Below are positions 21,045 to 31,304 of a DNA stretch of 64,000 nt, piece by piece. The notes under the pieces are model-generated. The model worked only from the letters and a program-made list of their open reading frames with translations. It did no database searches and was not told where the DNA came from. Location of the stretch: the NCBI GenBank assembly GCA_017631885.1, contig JAGBSH010000028.1:1-64000 (forward strand). Direction: 5' to 3'. The translations under genes and the position numbers were made by a program. The stretch is from Fibrobacteraceae bacterium. Its GTDB lineage: Bacteria > Fibrobacterota > Fibrobacteria > Fibrobacterales > Fibrobacteraceae. Positions within the stretch are counted from its first letter, which is position 1. Each line of letters starts with the position of its first letter.

Positions 21045-24000
21045 ATGATAAAAAAACTTTCGCTCTTTTCTTTTGTATTCCTTGTTTCAATTTCTTTTGT
21101 TCAAGGGCAAGACTTAACACCTTTAACTTGTTCTGTAAACCGAGATTTAGAACGTTGTGAAATAAGCATCAGTTCTCCACAAGAATTCCAGAGTCTTTCT
21201 GAATTAGATGCGTTTTGCGCTGAAACTTGTGAAGGCTTGCCTTATCATGTAACACTGACTCAAAATATTTTATTCAGCGACACTATCCCTGATTCTAATT
21301 GTGTCGCTAATTTTAGCCCCATTATGAATTTCTCAGGAACTCTTGATGGTAATGGGTTTTATATTGCAGGACTTTGCTTAAAAGACTCCGAGCAATTAGA
21401 AATGCTTTTGTCACCAGCTATTTTTTACCATACTGAAAAAGCAATATTTAAAAACTTAACTCTGAAAAACATTTTTGTTTCTTCTGAAAGTTCTGAAAGA
21501 ACTGCAGTTCTTGTCAACAACGCTTCTGTTTCTTTGGAAATGGACAACATTGAACTTTATAACATTACTGTTGTAGCCAAAGGTTATGCTTCTTCTGGTA
21601 TTCTTGTTTCTGAATTAAATAACGATACTGCCAATGTCGCAAAATTCAATCGCATTAAAGGTAGTGATTTGAATTTATTGATTTATGGCGATGGTTCTGT
21701 TGGTGGCTTAATTGGCTATTCTTCAGGAAATAAACCTACAGAAATAACTAATTCTTCTATTCAATTAAATGTAACACATTTAAATACAACCGAAGAAAAA
21801 CCGGTTTCACTCAATTTTGGTGGATTAATCGGGGAAACTTATGGTGCAAAATTTAAAAATGACTCTCTTGTCCTTAATGTTTCTTTGAAAAACTCTAATT
21901 TTCCACAAGAAACTTTTAAATTCGGTGGATTTGTTGGAAACGCTTTTGGAAAAATTTTTGTTGATGATGTTACTATAAGCGGAAACATTGAAAGTTTAGA
22001 AGAAATTTCTCAAGAAGAAATGCCTTATACACCTATTTATCTTGGTGGTATTTTAGGTAGTGCTGATGGAGATACAATCATTATCAACAACGCTAAAATT
22101 TCCTCTAATTTCAAATTTTCATACATAAATCCTGCTGAACTTTTTGTTGGTTCTGCTATTGGTTACGTTTATGCAACAACCCTAAATATGCAAAACGTTA
22201 CTTATGATGGTGAAATCTCTTTTGAAAATTCTAGTAGCGATAACATTTCTCTTGGTGGTTTTGTGGGCATATATTCAACCCCTGAATACAATTATAATTC
22301 TTCGTCATCCACAGCCACTCAAGAAAACTTAGAAATGAAAGGAAAAATCAAATTTTCACTTCTTCAGGATTCTTATCGCACACCTATAAATTTCCAAATG
22401 GGTGGGGTTTTTGGTGCATATCAAGGCTACGATGAAAACCCATACCAATTAATGTTTAATGACATTAAAGTCTCTGGCGACATTACTTTAGATGCTACAG
22501 GAAGTGCTCCATACATTGGCGGAATTGTTGGTAATTTACAAGCTGGAATAAGTGAAGTCAATATTCAAAATTCAAATATTAGCGCTTCTATTTCTGCTAA
22601 AGCTATTTATTCTCAAATCGGCGGTCTTTTTGGTGCTGTAACTACTAATTCCATTTCTCTAACAAACAACAAAGTATCTTCTTCTATTGATGTTCTTTCA
22701 AAAACTCAACCTGGCAGTGCTCTAGAAATAGCTTCTCCAGAATTGACTATTGGCGGTCTTATTGGCCATAATAATTCTTGGAACACCATTACAACTAAAA
22801 ACAAAGTGTCTTCAAACATAGTTGTAGATTATGATAAAGATTTCTTTGAAAATCCTAATATGTATGTTCACTTTGAAAACTCGGCTTTAGGTGGTTTAAT
22901 CGGAAAAATCAATTCTTATCGAGAAGGCGCCATTACATCAACTATTGATTCATCTTCTTTTGAAGGTAGCATCAAAGTTTCTAATGCTATACCTCTTTCT
23001 TATATCGGAGGCTTTATTGGATTTATTTCTAATTGCCACACAACAATTTCTAATTCTTTTGCAAAAAATGCAGACACTTTACTTGCAGCCAACACTGCTA
23101 CCGAAACTCAAGAAATGACTCCGCTTTATATGGGTGGGTTGATTGGTGGCGTTTTAGGTGATTGGGATTTAGAATTCTACACGCAAATTGAACAAACTTT
23201 TGTTGACGGGCTTTTAGAACTCAATGCTAAAGTTCTTGAAGATGGACAGAGTCTTCTTGCTGGTTTTATCGGTACAAATGATAAATACATTGAAGCAAGC
23301 AATGCTTATTTTGTGGGTAACCTTTCTACAGAAACTCCTGACGCTGTTGGAGTTTATGGCCTTCACTATACGACTTTGAATAGTTCTGATGCATTGCGCT
23401 CCGTTTATGTTGTTGATTTTACAAAGAATGCTCAACAATTAACGAATACCGATCCTTGGGTTAATTATGAAACTGCTCTAGCAAATTCTACTGATTCACT
23501 TGTAAAAATCACATCTTTCATAAACTCAAATATCATTTATGACAGTCTTTCTCTTGCAACTCCTACATACGCAGCTGCTCTTAATAACACTCGCCCTGTA
23601 TGGTATCAAAATCAAGAAACAAACAATGGCTTACCTCAATTAACCATTTTCAAGCAAGGCCAGAAGCCAACCCTTGGTGTTTATTTCTATGACCGAATTC
23701 CAAATGAAGATCCATCCATTACATCGTCTTCATACGTTATTTCAACCTATTTCACAGATAATTCTGGAAAATTAGCATTCCAAAAAGATGGCTCTGCTAT
23801 TAAATTCAATCTTTTACCTCCAGCAATTTACTTTGCTCCAGAAGATTCAACCTTAGTCACCTTCTATAAAAATAGCGCAGAAGTCAGACCAAATCATTCC
23901 GAAAGTTTATTACCTCCATCTCTTTGGAATAGTGATTCTAATCATGTTTATACTGAAAACACATTCTTCCATAAGATGTCTGCAAGAGTTGTGTTCCCTC

Positions 24001-26561
24001 CTCTTGACTCCATTGAAGGAGCGATTGTACAAGGTTATTCTTCTCAATTCTTATTAGAAGATTCTTTGCCTAAAATGTTATTACACAACCCTGAAGAAAA
24101 CAATTATTACCTTTATTCCTCTTGGGAAATTCCAGATACAAAAACCATTTGCGAAAACACTTCTTGCTTGTGGGATGCTATTTCTCAAATTGCTACAGAA
24201 AGAGATACGATAGCCATAGACATTTTCCCTGCTAGCAATTATGAAACCTTCCAACACTTTGTTCAATTTGAACTTATGGAAGGAATGGACTTTAAAGCAA
24301 GTATTTGGGATACAGCTATTGATACAACTCTCTCAATCTTATCAACTGCAGAGAACTTCATTGTCCCTCGCGTTTCACAAATGGTCATTTCAAAACTGCA
24401 TGGAATCCCAGAAGACGCATTAAAAGATTCATTACTTGTTATCATTAATGATTTTGAACAATATGAAATTGCTTTAGGAGATACTATTTCTTTACCTAGC
24501 GATTACAATGCAAACATTACTATTGTCCCTAAAATTTATTACTACTTAAAAATACAAACTCCTAATTCTACACAACCAATTTTCCAAACAGCGGAAATAC
24601 CTAAAAAATATTTCTATCGCCAAAAAGAAGTTCTCTTGCCAAACCTTTCTACAGTAACTCGTTGTCTTTCAAATTACAGACACGGCCAAGAACACTTCTA
24701 TTATGACGAAGAACAAAACTTATTTGTTTGGAACCCTAATCAATATGGTAACGCTCTTATCTACGCCGAATTTAATTCTTGCGTTCCAGAAACTGACCGA
24801 ATCTACATTGAAGCTGATTCTGGAGTAACAACCGTTATTTCTCATTACGGACAAGAATTAAATATCCCTGGACAAACAGGCTTTAAAATCCCATTGATTG
24901 GCAACCTTCGCTTTGATGTAAAAACAACGCCTATTGCCGATGAATTCCGCATAGATTCTTTAGCATTCAACGATATGCGTTTAGAAGGCGATAGCGTATT
25001 CTACACCAATCAAGGTGGAACTCTCAAAGTATTTATGCAAGAAATAAAAGATATTTTCAAAATTCAAAAGGCTATTCTTGCGCAATCGGGCACAGCTATG
25101 CGCTATTCCATTACGCCAGAAGAAATTGAAATTTATCACCCGATGCATTTAAATGTTCAAATTTTCTCTGAAGATTCAGTTCTCCTCATAGACACAGTCT
25201 TAACAAGAAACGCAGAATCTGGAAAAGAATACACCTTTGAACACTACCCTCTTGCTCCGGGCAATTATTTTGCTAAAGCCAATCTTTTCACCACAAACAA
25301 TGCAGAAACAGAATCTTATCCTCTTGAAGTTTCCGCTTTATTCAATGAAGAATCAATTACACCTCAATCTTGGTCAATGATTTCACTTGCCAACCTTGAC
25401 ACTTCTAAATGGAAACCAGAAAATAATGACAATGCCACATTATACTGGTGGAACGAAAAAATGCCTGTTGGTGAATATTGGCAATACCAACGCCTAGAAA
25501 CAGCCAAAGACATTTCTCCAATGAATGGTTATTGGTTCTTTGCCGAAGATTCTCTAACTTTACCATTACTCTCTCAACCAGTAAAAGCCAAAAGCGACAC
25601 TCTTTCTTTTGAACTTGAAAATAATTACAGTGGCTGGAATTTGCTTTCAAACCCATATTCTTGGGACATTGCTATCAATCAAGCAGAAGCATTTATGGAT
25701 GCAGAAAATGCAGAAGAACCTGCTTGGGTATGGAACGCCAAAGCGAATAGCTATGAACCGATAACAACACTCAAAGCCAACACAGCATTCTTTATGCACA
25801 CAGAAGAAACAAGAACGCTTTCTATTTCTTCAAAACCTGTATACCAAGAACAAGACTCCACCAAGATTTTAGAAAAAGCTCAAAAAACATTCTCTAAAGA
25901 TTCTTGGAGTTTACGCTTGAAACTCATGGATTCAGATGAAAAATCCGGCGACACTTGGAATGTGATTGGTGTTGGCTCTCGTTCGCTTGCCATAGAAAAA
26001 CCACCTGTTGGCATGAACCAAAAACTCACACTTGCCACCCAAGGCAACCACAGACTTCTAGCCAAATCAATTAAACAAATTGGCGAATCGCTTGTTTGGA
26101 ATTTAAAATTGCAAGCAAACGTTTCTCAAACGGCAAAGTTCAAAATCGAAGGATTAAACAAGCTTTTGGAACAAGGTTACATAGCACAACTTCTCATAGA
26201 TGGAAAAACTATTACCATTGATAGTGAAGACGCAATTGCACTCAATTTAACTGCCTCTTCCAAAAATGCTATTCTAAAAATTGAACCAAAAGCAACGCTT
26301 GTTTCTCCAGGGAAAATTCAGAACTTACGCTTTGCAAAAAATGGCCAACAATTACAAGTTTCATTCACCAGAAACAATTCCGATGGTGCACTTGCAACCG
26401 TTCGTTTAATGGATTCTCAAGGGAAAACGCTCACCTTCACCCATAAACGCTCCACATCCGGAGAAAATTCTTTCGCCTTAGACGTTCCACAAGCAAGCGG
26501 TTCTTTCTTCTTGAATCTCCTTGTCGGAACCGAATCGAAAACAATCCCATTAAACTTCTAA
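21045..26561 (+). CDS. Giant GLUG-repeat surface protein with a putative T9SS-type C-terminal domain
   Basis: The 1838-residue product has a signal peptide (MIKKLSLFSFVFLVSISF). Residues about 215-700 hold about a dozen GLUG-type motifs (GGLIGYSSG, GGLIGETYG, GGFVGNAFG, GGILGSADG, GGLFGAVT, GGLIGHNN, GGFIGFIS, GGLIGGVLG and others), separated by 30-50 residue beta strands; this region should be a long beta-solenoid typical of adhesins. A middle region follows with Ig-like and Trp-rich modules. The final about 80 residues (VRLMDSQGKTLTF, ALDVPQASGSFFLNLLVG, KTIPLNF) look like a type IX secretion C-terminal sorting domain. A ribosome binding site AAAAGGGAG lies before the ATG, 12 bases after the barrel gene. 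A role in adhesion or substrate binding is likely; the ligand is unknown. Confidence 0.75.
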   Translation: MIKKLSLFSFVFLVSISFVQGQDLTPLTCSVNRDLERCEISISSPQEFQSLSELDAFCAETCEGLPYHVTLTQNILFSDTIPDSNCVANFSPIMNFSGTLDGNGFYIAGLCLKDSEQLEMLLSPAIFYHTEKAIFKNLTLKNIFVSSESSERTAVLVNNASVSLEMDNIELYNITVVAKGYASSGILVSELNNDTANVAKFNRIKGSDLNLLIYGDGSVGGLIGYSSGNKPTEITNSSIQLNVTHLNTTEEKPVSLNFGGLIGETYGAKFKNDSLVLNVSLKNSNFPQETFKFGGFVGNAFGKIFVDDVTISGNIESLEEISQEEMPYTPIYLGGILGSADGDTIIINNAKISSNFKFSYINPAELFVGSAIGYVYATTLNMQNVTYDGEISFENSSSDNISLGGFVGIYSTPEYNYNSSSSTATQENLEMKGKIKFSLLQDSYRTPINFQMGGVFGAYQGYDENPYQLMFNDIKVSGDITLDATGSAPYIGGIVGNLQAGISEVNIQNSNISASISAKAIYSQIGGLFGAVTTNSISLTNNKVSSSIDVLSKTQPGSALEIASPELTIGGLIGHNNSWNTITTKNKVSSNIVVDYDKDFFENPNMYVHFENSALGGLIGKINSYREGAITSTIDSSSFEGSIKVSNAIPLSYIGGFIGFISNCHTTISNSFAKNADTLLAANTATETQEMTPLYMGGLIGGVLGDWDLEFYTQIEQTFVDGLLELNAKVLEDGQSLLAGFIGTNDKYIEASNAYFVGNLSTETPDAVGVYGLHYTTLNSSDALRSVYVVDFTKNAQQLTNTDPWVNYETALANSTDSLVKITSFINSNIIYDSLSLATPTYAAALNNTRPVWYQNQETNNGLPQLTIFKQGQKPTLGVYFYDRIPNEDPSITSSSYVISTYFTDNSGKLAFQKDGSAIKFNLLPPAIYFAPEDSTLVTFYKNSAEVRPNHSESLLPPSLWNSDSNHVYTENTFFHKMSARVVFPPLDSIEGAIVQGYSSQFLLEDSLPKMLLHNPEENNYYLYSSWEIPDTKTICENTSCLWDAISQIATERDTIAIDIFPASNYETFQHFVQFELMEGMDFKASIWDTAIDTTLSILSTAENFIVPRVSQMVISKLHGIPEDALKDSLLVIINDFEQYEIALGDTISLPSDYNANITIVPKIYYYLKIQTPNSTQPIFQTAEIPKKYFYRQKEVLLPNLSTVTRCLSNYRHGQEHFYYDEEQNLFVWNPNQYGNALIYAEFNSCVPETDRIYIEADSGVTTVISHYGQELNIPGQTGFKIPLIGNLRFDVKTTPIADEFRIDSLAFNDMRLEGDSVFYTNQGGTLKVFMQEIKDIFKIQKAILAQSGTAMRYSITPEEIEIYHPMHLNVQIFSEDSVLLIDTVLTRNAESGKEYTFEHYPLAPGNYFAKANLFTTNNAETESYPLEVSALFNEESITPQSWSMISLANLDTSKWKPENNDNATLYWWNEKMPVGEYWQYQRLETAKDISPMNGYWFFAEDSLTLPLLSQPVKAKSDTLSFELENNYSGWNLLSNPYSWDIAINQAEAFMDAENAEEPAWVWNAKANSYEPITTLKANTAFFMHTEETRTLSISSKPVYQEQDSTKILEKAQKTFSKDSWSLRLKLMDSDEKSGDTWNVIGVGSRSLAIEKPPVGMNQKLTLATQGNHRLLAKSIKQIGESLVWNLKLQANVSQTAKFKIEGLNKLLEQGYIAQLLIDGKTITIDSEDAIALNLTASSKNAILKIEPKATLVSPGKIQNLRFAKNGQQLQVSFTRNNSDGALATVRLMDSQGKTLTFTHKRSTSGENSFALDVPQASGSFFLNLLVGTESKTIPLNF

Positions 26562-26608: not shown

Positions 26609-26952
26609 AAGGAAAGGTGATTTTTGCTTTGCAAAAATCGTCGACAAACCTAAACTTGTCATTGCAAGACGTGCTGAATGCACGCGACTTGCCGCCTGTC
26701 TCTTGTCCACGGTTCTTGTCATTGCGAACTCTGCAAGGGTAAAGCAATCCCTTTGCTAACAGATCGCCGCACTGCGTTCGCGATGACAAGTTACTAGTAG
26801 ATGGCTACGAGGCACAAGGCACTCACCATGACAACCTAGAACTTGCCACGCGGGTCTTGTCACGAGTTTCTTATCACTCGCGAACTACTTTTGTTATGGC
26901 AAAACGTGCAAAATGCACGGCGTGGCAATCCCATCGTTTCACAAACTCCCAC
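26609..26952. repeat. Intergenic cluster of degenerate palindromic repeats
   Basis: No gene is seen in this stretch. It holds several related pieces. CTTGTCATTGC occurs at 26655-26665 and 26715-26725, and its inverted form CGATGACAAG at 26781-26790. CGTGC-GCACG hairpins lie at 26670-26684 and 26905-26919, in the contexts GCAAGACGTGCTGAATGCACG and GGCAAAACGTGCAAAATGCACG. GCAATCCC occurs near 26744 and 26926. The CTTGTCATTGCGA ... GCAATCC ... CGCGATGACAAG wording recalls the mobile intergenic palindromic repeats found in many bacterial genomes. The local base composition is higher in G+C than the flanks. Copies look eroded. No transposase or attachment site is visible. Confidence 0.6.
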
Positions 26953-26988
26953 AAAAAAAAGAGCAAATACTTACGCATTTACTCTTTT
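26953..26988 (-). terminator. Terminator of the dapA / Cys-rich operon
   Basis: On the minus strand AAAGAGTAAATGC pairs with GTATTTGCTCTTT (13 pairs, two of them G-U) around a GTAA loop and is followed by a run of T. It lies 22 bases beyond the stop of the Cys/Asp-rich gene. Confidence 0.85.
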
Positions 26989-27010: not shown

Positions 27011-27670
27011 TTATTCTTTGCAATTTTTTTCAATAACTTCAAGAACCTTAGCAGGATCTTCTTCAATTTCTGCAGAAGCTTCATCTACCAATGTGGCAAA
27101 TTCATCAAACCATTCTGCAAAAATTTCAACTTCTAAATGATCTGGCCCAGGAACTACAAGACGAGCCCCACAGCATTCACCAATATATTGTTCATACTTA
27201 GCGATTTCTGGACGCAAAAGACTCAAATCTAAACCATCCAAATCTTCTGGCCAAAGTTCGTCTTCACAACAGCAATCACATTCTTCATCAGAATCTTTAC
27301 AACAACAAGATTCTTCTTCGTCAGAACAATCGCATTTTTCGTCTTTGCAACCACATTTGCAATCATCTTCACAATCACAATCGCAGTCGCAATCACAGTC
27401 ACAACAACAATCACAGCAGCAATCGCAATCATCATCTTCTACACCGCTATTATAGTAGAATTCATCTTCTTCTAAATACAATGCTTCAACAAAAATACCT
27501 TTTGCTCCAAGGATTTTAGCAGCATCAACGAATTCTTCGAAGGTACCGGCAAAATAACGGCTAGCTTCAGCTTCTTCATTCAAAGTCTGGACAGGAATAG
27601 CTGTAAGACCATGTAGTTTTAAATTTTCAGAAATTTCTTCTGCAATAGATTTTTTCAAATTTTCAGACAT
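27011..27670 (-). CDS. Protein with a 24-cysteine Cys/Asp-rich tract, metallothionein-like insertion
   Basis: A 219-residue acidic, apparently cytoplasmic protein of unknown family (no signal peptide). Residues 1-78 and 137-219 look like two halves of an ordinary alpha/beta domain. Between them, residues 82-135 carry 24 cysteines interleaved with Asp, Glu and Lys: CCC triplets, then (Asp-Cys)5, CKCGC, CDC, and two more CCC triplets. The coding DNA mixes TGC and TGT and mixes GAT and GAC, so the pattern is not a recent uniform microsatellite. Such density of Cys and Asp suggests binding of thiophilic or divalent metals. Further cysteines (ECCGA, NCKE) follow in the C-terminal half. The gene starts 16 bases after dapA and ends at a good terminator. 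Metal binding is an inference; a role linked to DapA is unproven. Confidence 0.75.
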   Translation of the reverse strand: MSENLKKSIAEEISENLKLHGLTAIPVQTLNEEAEASRYFAGTFEEFVDAAKILGAKGIFVEALYLEEDEFYYNSGVEDDDCDCCCDCCCDCDCDCDCDCEDDCKCGCKDEKCDCSDEEESCCCKDSDEECDCCCEDELWPEDLDGLDLSLLRPEIAKYEQYIGECCGARLVVPGPDHLEVEIFAEWFDEFATLVDEASAEIEEDPAKVLEVIEKNCKE

Positions 27671-27686
27671 AATAAAATCCTTTAAT

Positions 27687-28643
27687 TTATTGGTGATACT
27701 TAAGCAAAGATTGAGCCTTTTCCTGAATAAGTTTCATAATACGAGCTTCTGCTTCATCGCCACGAGCTGTATCACGAACACTCACCAATGGTTGGAAAAG
27801 CGGGCTATTAAACAAAGTACCAAGAGGAATGGGGTTTTTACGGCAGAATGTTGCTTCTACATAATCGCGAGCCGCATCTTGCAAATCATCGCACTTTGTA
27901 AATTCACCTTTTAAGAAACTCTTGTGAAGTTCCACAAAAATTTTTGCTGCTTCAGGAATGTTTGCAGAAGCACTGATAAGGCCTTTACCACCCATTTCTA
28001 ACATATCAATGAAAAAGCCATCTTCACCGCTAAGAACAGCAAAATCATTATTAGCCGTTTCTTTAATCACACGAAGTGTATCTTCGTGAAACTTTTCTCC
28101 TATTCGGAAATCAACAGCTTGCTTTAAACCAATAATATTTTTGTCTTCAGAAAGGCGAATCAGAGTATCAGGATGAATATAACTTGCCGTACGGCCTGGG
28201 ACGTTATAAACGATAATCTTTGCACCTGTTTCTGAGCTCAAAGTCCGGAAATGTTTTTCAATACCTTCTTGAGATGGATTGTTGTAATACCCAGTAACGC
28301 AAAGTACAGGTACTTCAGCTATTTTCAAGACCTCTTCAATCATTTCTACAGATTCACGAGTACAATTAGAGCCAGCACCAGCAATAACTGGAACTCGACC
28401 ATCAACATAGTCAAGTGTAAATTTAATGATATCAAGGTGTTGCTTGTGAGTAACCGTAGCACTCTGCCCTGTTGTTCCAACAGGCAAAATACCAGTCACG
28501 CCAGAAGCGATTAAATCATCTATCATTTGTCCCATTTTCTTAAAATCTATCGAATTACGAAGATTTTTAGGGTCATCGGAACAAAGAGGAGTAAATATTG
28601 CCGGAAATACACCGGTTAATTGAGAAGCTTGTGTTATTTGCAT
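27687..28643 (-). CDS. dapA: 4-hydroxy-tetrahydrodipicolinate synthase DapA (or related aldolase)
   Basis: The protein is a TIM-barrel of the DHDPS/NAL family, 318 residues from the ATG at 28643. An upstream in-frame ATG at 28682 would add 13 residues; the shorter start aligns better with family N-termini (GVFPAIFTPL soon after the start). Signature elements are GTTGQSATV (substrate loop), YNVPGRT (the catalytic Tyr) and IIGLKQAVD (the Schiff-base Lys). DapA condenses pyruvate with aspartate semialdehyde for lysine and diaminopimelate, which peptidoglycan and Pal binding require. The protein is slightly longer than E. coli DapA (292). It is followed 16 bases later by the Cys/Asp-rich gene. 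An N-acetylneuraminate lyase-like activity cannot be fully excluded. Confidence 0.87.
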   Translation of the reverse strand: MQITQASQLTGVFPAIFTPLCSDDPKNLRNSIDFKKMGQMIDDLIASGVTGILPVGTTGQSATVTHKQHLDIIKFTLDYVDGRVPVIAGAGSNCTRESVEMIEEVLKIAEVPVLCVTGYYNNPSQEGIEKHFRTLSSETGAKIIVYNVPGRTASYIHPDTLIRLSEDKNIIGLKQAVDFRIGEKFHEDTLRVIKETANNDFAVLSGEDGFFIDMLEMGGKGLISASANIPEAAKIFVELHKSFLKGEFTKCDDLQDAARDYVEATFCRKNPIPLGTLFNSPLFQPLVSVRDTARGDEAEARIMKLIQEKAQSLLKYHQ

Positions 28644-28790
28644 AGTCCACAAAATATAAGATTTTTCAAAAGCAGAAATCATTTTTTCAAAAAAAACTGT
28701 AAAATTTAATGAAGAATGATTTCTAATTCGTTTTTTGAGCCAAAAGATTTTTAAATTGCTAGCAAACCTTTAATCAACAGGACCCTTTTT

Positions 28791-30413: not shown

Positions 30414-31304
30414 ATGAAAAAAATAATTGCTCTCTTATGTGCTTGTGCTCTTTCGAGTTTTGCACAAAAAAATACAGAATTCCAAGCTTTTGCGGGTGAA
30501 TTCCTTAAAATTGGCGATATGAAAGGTGGCTACCATTCTTTCTCTATGCCAGTTAAAGGCGAAGGTTGGGCTTTCCAAGCAGAAGGTCAGGTACAAGCTC
30601 CTGCAGGTGACCCGTATGTTTTGCTTGACGGTGTTATCGATGGACTAGTTTATGCTGTTATTGCTTATGTTCCTGCAGTTGCTGCTGGAACTGACGCTAA
30701 AGATTATCAGGTCGGTATGTTCGATATGATGATTTATTTAGAAGATGAAGCTGTAAAAGTCCGCGATGTAAAGTTCAAACTTTTACCTCCTGCAAATGAC
30801 GAATGGGCTCTTGATATGGCTCGTGACGCTGCTGAAATTGGGAATGCCTCAAAAGCAACTCTTTGGAATGGTTCTCACGATGTTGAAATCACACGCACCG
30901 CTGCAGTTCCTTTAACCAAAAAGGATTTACAACCTGCAAAACCAAAGCCAGCTGCTCGGAAACTTCCTCCTCCACCAGCACAAGAAGTAGAAGAAGCTGC
31001 AGAAGAACCAGTCGTTAAAAAACGTGTTGTTAAACGTAAAGCAGTTGCTGAAGAAGAAGAAACTCCAGCTCCTGTCAAGAAAAAACGTGTTGTTAAACGC
31101 AAAAAGGTTGTAGAACCTGAAGAAGATTATGAAGAAGAAACTCCTAAAAAGAAAAAAGTGGTAAAAAAACGTATCGTTAAAAAGAAACGTGTTATCGTTG
31201 AAGAAGAACCTGAAGAAGAAGAAGGTTTGACTATTCGCGAAAAACGTCGCCGTGCAGCCGCTAAACGCCAAAAAGCAGCGGAAGCTAGCGATTACGAAGA
31301 CTAA
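30414..31304 (+). CDS. Secreted protein with C-terminal Lys/Arg-Glu charge-block tail, unknown function
   Basis: No family is recognised. The 296-residue product has a signal peptide (MKKIIALLCACALSSFA) and a folded N-terminal domain of about 145 residues (GYHSFSMPVKGEGWAFQAEG, WALDMARDAAEIG). A Pro-rich linker follows at about 170-185 (KLPPPPAQ). The last 105 residues form alternating blocks: KKRVVKRK twice, KKKKVVKKRIVKKKRV, then EEEPEEEEG and a final KRRRAAAKRQKAAE. This is a polyampholyte tail, reminiscent of nucleic-acid- or polyanion-binding tails but on an exported protein. Good context: AGAGGAAAT before the ATG and a strong terminator after the gene. Cotranscription with the phosphohexomutase is likely by spacing. 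Confidence 0.7.
   Translation: MKKIIALLCACALSSFAQKNTEFQAFAGEFLKIGDMKGGYHSFSMPVKGEGWAFQAEGQVQAPAGDPYVLLDGVIDGLVYAVIAYVPAVAAGTDAKDYQVGMFDMMIYLEDEAVKVRDVKFKLLPPANDEWALDMARDAAEIGNASKATLWNGSHDVEITRTAAVPLTKKDLQPAKPKPAARKLPPPPAQEVEEAAEEPVVKKRVVKRKAVAEEEETPAPVKKKRVVKRKKVVEPEEDYEEETPKKKKVVKKRIVKKKRVIVEEEPEEEEGLTIREKRRRAAAKRQKAAEASDYED

Follow-up and report, generated by a model that had tools for sequence, protein, structure and literature searches.

A cysteine-rich internal linker in a dapA-linked protein family of Fibrobacteraceae: a candidate metal-binding loop

An open reading frame (ORF) in the window (the whole 64,000-nucleotide stretch of Fibrobacteraceae DNA analysed here) encodes a small, acidic and probably cytoplasmic protein that carries, between the two halves of a conserved core, an acidic linker with 24 cysteines. 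Our best reading of the data is that this loop is real, selected and lineage-amplified, and that it is kin to known disordered metal-binding extensions on folded proteins. We postulate that it probably functions, in the manner of a SlyD tail, as a thiolate-based buffer or store for Zn, Cu(I) or Cd. As judged from sequence comparison, the family to which the protein belongs is restricted to Fibrobacteraceae, has no name, and is linked to dapA across seven genera.

The cysteine tract and its host protein

The tract was located exactly where the original prediction had placed it, with every checked detail right, and it lies as proposed inside a larger protein of 219 residues that adjoins dapA (Table 1). 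Its 54 residues comprise 24 Cys, 15 Asp, 7 Glu, 4 Lys, 3 Ser and 1 Gly, and include four CCC triplets, ten DC pairs and nine CD pairs. Among the other long ORFs of the window Cys makes up 0.9% of residues and reaches at most 4 in any 54-residue stretch, giving a binomial probability of ~5e-35 for 24 Cys among 54 residues. Codon usage within the tract is mixed (15 TGT and 9 TGC; 11 GAT and 4 GAC), and the Cys codons over the long ORFs of the window number 94 TGT and 67 TGC. Tandem Repeats Finder detected a weak, degenerate 6-base periodicity in the tract (69% matches, score 54). An exact DNA pattern search of the genome for a further CDCDC tract returned four overlapping matches, all belonging to this same tract, and the gene itself is present once, with no further copy in the genome.

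Surrounding the tract is a conserved core of ~150 residues. All 33 invariant columns of a 35-member alignment fall outside the Cys tract, and Cys167 (numbered as in the window protein) is invariant in 35 of the 35 aligned homologues. AlphaFold2, run with the family alignment, predicts a confident alpha/beta core built from the two halves, with residues 84–135 at pLDDT <50, and a short-linker homologue is predicted with the same structural elements. In these models the Cys tract is an unstructured loop joining two confidently predicted core halves.

The host had been described in the original prediction as an otherwise ordinary acidic domain, a description that did not survive: the family has no known relative by sequence or by fold. 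Sequence searches of Pfam, NCBIfam and PDB gave no credible relative, whether the query was the whole protein, the tract or a family alignment; the whole protein had only a sub-threshold chance match in Pfam. Weak matches to RapA and Sdr were set aside, as they look like products of acidic bias. Foldseek searches, at E up to 0.001, returned nothing for two AlphaFold2 models against PDB, nor for one against viral models.

Table 1. Features of the locus, in window coordinates
Feature	Position	Strand	Remarks
Whole ORF	27011..27670	(-)	219 aa; predicted pI 4.05; 27 Cys in total; ATG start
Cys/Asp tract, residues 82-135	27266..27427	(-)	24 Cys; proposed metal-thiolate loop
N-terminal core half, residues 1-72, up to the variable linker	27455..27670	(-)	Alignment A1; AlphaFold2 mostly confident at residues 9-78
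C-terminal core half, residues 143-219	27014..27244	(-)	Alignment; pLDDT about 88-97 by blocks
dapA (4-hydroxy-tetrahydrodipicolinate synthase)	27687..28682	(-)	Pfam/NCBIfam; sole copy in the genome; conserved neighbour
Terminator-like hairpin and T run	26957..26988	(-)	22 bases past the ORF stop; consensus match only

Linkage to dapA and range of the family

The gene lies 16 bases downstream of the end of dapA, on the same strand, and dapA is assigned by a score that exceeds the curated TIGR00674 cut-off. A ribosome-binding-like AAAGGA stands at a suitable distance before the ORF start codon. The short gap, this site and the terminator-like hairpin past the stop make it likely that the two genes are cotranscribed as a predicted two-gene unit. 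Upstream of dapA, a phosphoglucomutase/phosphomannomutase gene is transcribed divergently. An Rfam scan of the window found no element, and thus no lysine riboswitch of known kind, while a scan for sigma-70 promoters gave matches at chance level only. Beside the gene we identified no metal repressor or transporter; metal-related genes are not linked to it, the conserved neighbour being dapA.

A predicted exported protein of 1838 residues with short repeated motifs (21045-26561) is convergent to the dapA unit. In the intergenic region downstream of the unit (26640-26930), words resembling CTTGTCATTGC and CGCGATGACAAG recur, apparently as a repeat of the dispersed intergenic type. At 30414-31304, a predicted exported protein of 296 residues ends in a long repetitive Lys/Arg/Glu-rich tail and has no Pfam match above the curated cut-off.

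We define the family by its conserved core, its variable acidic linker and its position after dapA, all of which the ORF displays. Of the 111 Fibrobacteraceae genomes, 90 contain a homologue, and searching the other Fibrobacterota genomes (168 in all) yielded none; the named records belong to Fibrobacter and other Fibrobacteraceae/Fibrobacteria, many of them from rumen and gut samples. Directly upstream and on the same strand, dapA was present in 76 of 76 checkable loci, a count that includes some genomes fetched twice, and 5 further loci end too early to judge. Seven genomes that lack the gene retain dapA, which therefore does not need it, and no common neighbour was seen beside dapA in those seven that could be a substitute; in one more genome without the gene (G046) the contig stops inside dapA. 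Most Fibrobacter (g6) members, for example L009 and L010, bear a Lys/Ala-rich C-terminal extension with the motif KKIAxHPPKK, which is absent from the window's lineage. A literature search found no paper on the protein, in line with the earlier suggestion that it is undescribed.

Variation and selection in the linker

All members possess a variable acidic linker of 37–77 residues, in which the number of Cys ranges from 0 to 24 (median 5) and correlates with linker length (r 0.81). The window protein has 24, its sister species 20, members of genus g5 have 19, 16 and 9, and several lineages 10–14; most Fibrobacter have ~5, G109, a genome from the same genus as the window, has 2, and genus g7 has 0–7, with 0–1 at four of its loci. 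High counts (12–24) occur on several distinct branches. In a phylogeny inferred from the flanks only, G109 is the sister of the pair formed by the window and its sister species (97/93 support), which means that the large tract either appeared once these lineages had parted or disappeared from G109. Because the linkers of G109 and g7 are poor in Cys, the Cys are dispensable for the family core, and on this comparison of sequences the tract elaborates a variable acidic linker and is not what defines the family functionally. The expectation that close relatives would share the Cys enrichment accordingly stands in part, as the sister species keeps 20 Cys but G109 and genus g7 have few.

Two compositional properties recur across the linkers. 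First, a CxC preceded by an acidic or amide residue is present in 57 of 62 distinct tracts. Second, the 3379 residues of these 62 tracts contain no His at all, for which the chance probability is ~2e-15 (calculated on 1989 less redundant residues and assuming independence, which related sequences violate).

Where the tract is rich in Cys, the Cys content is conserved although the Cys positions are not. The window and its sister species have 24 and 20 Cys at a flank dS of ~1.13, against a mean of 3.7 and a maximum of 12 Cys left over 5000 runs of a selection-free simulation, a neutral-decay model that ignores insertions and duplications. A second pair agrees, with 19 and 16 Cys where 4.7 are expected without selection. 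The agreement is weaker in a third pair, with 13 Cys each where 4.0 are expected and the simulation reaches a maximum of 13. Compared with the flanks, the tract has roughly three to five times as much replacement change and yet the number of Cys is kept, implying constraint on content but not on order. The original proposal of selection on the amino acids, as opposed to fresh slippage, is borne out by the two pairs whose Cys numbers lie far above the neutral simulation.

Proposed metal-binding role and comparison with known systems

In the mechanism we postulate, the ORF follows dapA as the second gene of what is probably a single transcription unit, and the two halves of its product form one alpha/beta core, with the disordered acidic linker exposed between them. 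The linker has a CxC-type motif and ~5 Cys in most lineages, and 12–24 Cys in the expanded form seen in the window's lineage and a few others. Its clustered thiolates would chelate metal ions of soft or borderline character (Zn(II), Cu(I), Cd(II)), and the linker would buffer or store metal while attached to the core, as disordered SlyD tails do. Thiolate metal binding is considered the most likely role because of this analogy with SlyD. The absence of His together with the density of Cys favours Zn, Cu(I) or Cd and disfavours Ni, since zero His fits a site built wholly of thiolates and carboxylates and sets the tracts apart from a Ni-type His tail.

Alternatively, the linker could be a thiol redox buffer or an oxygen/disulfide sensor, in which the Cys pool is oxidised and reduced with no physiological metal. 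Many of the Cys are adjacent (CCC) and could form disulfides, a thiol pool would equally allow content to be kept but not position, and Fibrobacter is an obligate anaerobe, which also counts in favour. We nevertheless regard this role as unlikely, because the CxC spacing with acidic neighbours is the usual metal-chelating pattern, one that recurs in SlyD tails from the same genomes, and because no thiol-redox partner was seen among the neighbours, of which dapA is the conserved one. Metal and redox roles are not mutually exclusive.

The hypervariable length of the linker (37–77 residues), its correlation with Cys count, the degenerate 6-base periodicity and the low Cys of g7 and G109 are all compatible with a functionless, neutral expansion of low-complexity sequence by growth of GAY-TGY hexamers. 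Synonymous divergence is, however, near saturation while Cys counts remain far above the simulation in two pairs and equal to its maximum in the third; the codons of the tract are mixed; and His is excluded though its codons are one base from those of Asp, which together leave neutral expansion improbable. Least convincing is a scaffold for an Fe-S cluster or other cofactor held by CxC/CCC and delivered to an enzyme, possibly of the diaminopimelate pathway: although the ligands are Cys only and the linkage to dapA is fixed, we find it very improbable given that the family has no fixed Cys constellation, that Pfam gave no credible Fe-S match (one member having a sub-threshold Radical_SAM match) and that DapA is not known to need a metal.

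If metal-thiolate binding by the linker is correct, bacterial metallothionein-like capacity can take the form of an expandable internal loop of a conserved protein, and searches for small metallothioneins would miss such loops. The analysis also points to a protein family, so far unstudied, from bacteria that are major cellulose degraders in the rumen and gut. Its linkage to dapA persists across seven genera, which makes a link to diaminopimelate synthesis testable, and the natural series of 0, 2, 5, 13, 20 and 24 Cys could serve directly as a dose series for metal binding. A more speculative extension, to which we give little credence, is that the loop would form a novel type of metal reservoir, lineage-specific and of metallothionein grade, and that its metal load might alter how the core acts on DapA or on a lysine/diaminopimelate step, so that the supply of cell-wall precursor would respond to Zn/Cu status.

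Like dapA-linked lysine/diaminopimelate genes, the family occupies the second position after dapA, at all 76 checkable loci; sequence searches found no resemblance of the protein to known lysine-pathway enzymes. With bacterial metallothioneins of the SmtA/PflQ2MT type, the tract shares a very high Cys density (24 of 54 residues), CxC motifs and presumed thiolate metal clusters. SmtA, which binds four Zn, and PflQ2MT, which binds about three, are both small stand-alone proteins (PMC10612145, PMC7387436), whereas the element here lies within a 219-residue protein, lacks His and matches no metallothionein profile: searched alone, the tract hit no Pfam family, Metallothio_Pro included, at E up to 10 under filters that are harsh on biased sequence, and it matched no solved structure in PDB. 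Helicobacter pylori HspA, as cited in PMC10653786, is a GroES with a metal-binding C-terminal extension, and on that account it shares the arrangement in which a protein of housekeeping type carries an extension that is lineage-specific and sequesters metal; it differs in that its core is known and its extension C-terminal and nickel-directed, the element here being an internal loop on a core without known relative.

The closest parallel is with SlyD, whose disordered tails are known in other organisms to bind Ni, Zn and Co; those of E. coli and H. pylori bind several Ni/Zn ions, with as many as seven Ni on the E. coli tail (PMC7055735, PMC10653786). The window's genome encodes SlyD in a separate gene (G000:C4:134451-135068; L083, L124), and the end of the SlyD protein is a tandem GHECCGGKNHGE-type repeat that contains 11 Cys and 12 His. 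Across Fibrobacteraceae the Cys-rich SlyD tails are variable and differ in wording, with 8–13 Cys in most sampled genomes and the upper value reached in L078 and L139, and they are often rich in His, of which the linkers of the same genomes have none. We considered and rejected a tie between low linker Cys and loss of the SlyD metal tail, as the SlyD tails of g7 stay rich in Cys and His. The ORF has no match to the FKBP prolyl-isomerase domain, and by its sequence the protein belongs neither to SlyD nor to any metallothionein family. SlyD differs in having its tail at the C-terminus of an FKBP core, whereas the linker is internal, free of His, carried by an unrelated core and linked to dapA. 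In both, a hypervariable, Cys/Asp/Glu/Gly-rich element, disordered in SlyD and predicted to be so in the linker, sits on a conserved folded core; in composition and predicted disorder the tract is analogous to a SlyD tail. The resemblance extends to CxCG wording, SlyD tails reading for example CGDDCDCGDDCKCG (L078), GECKCG and HECCGG, and linkers GEDCKCG. This parallel with SlyD tails from the same genomes strengthens the case that the linker may bind metal.
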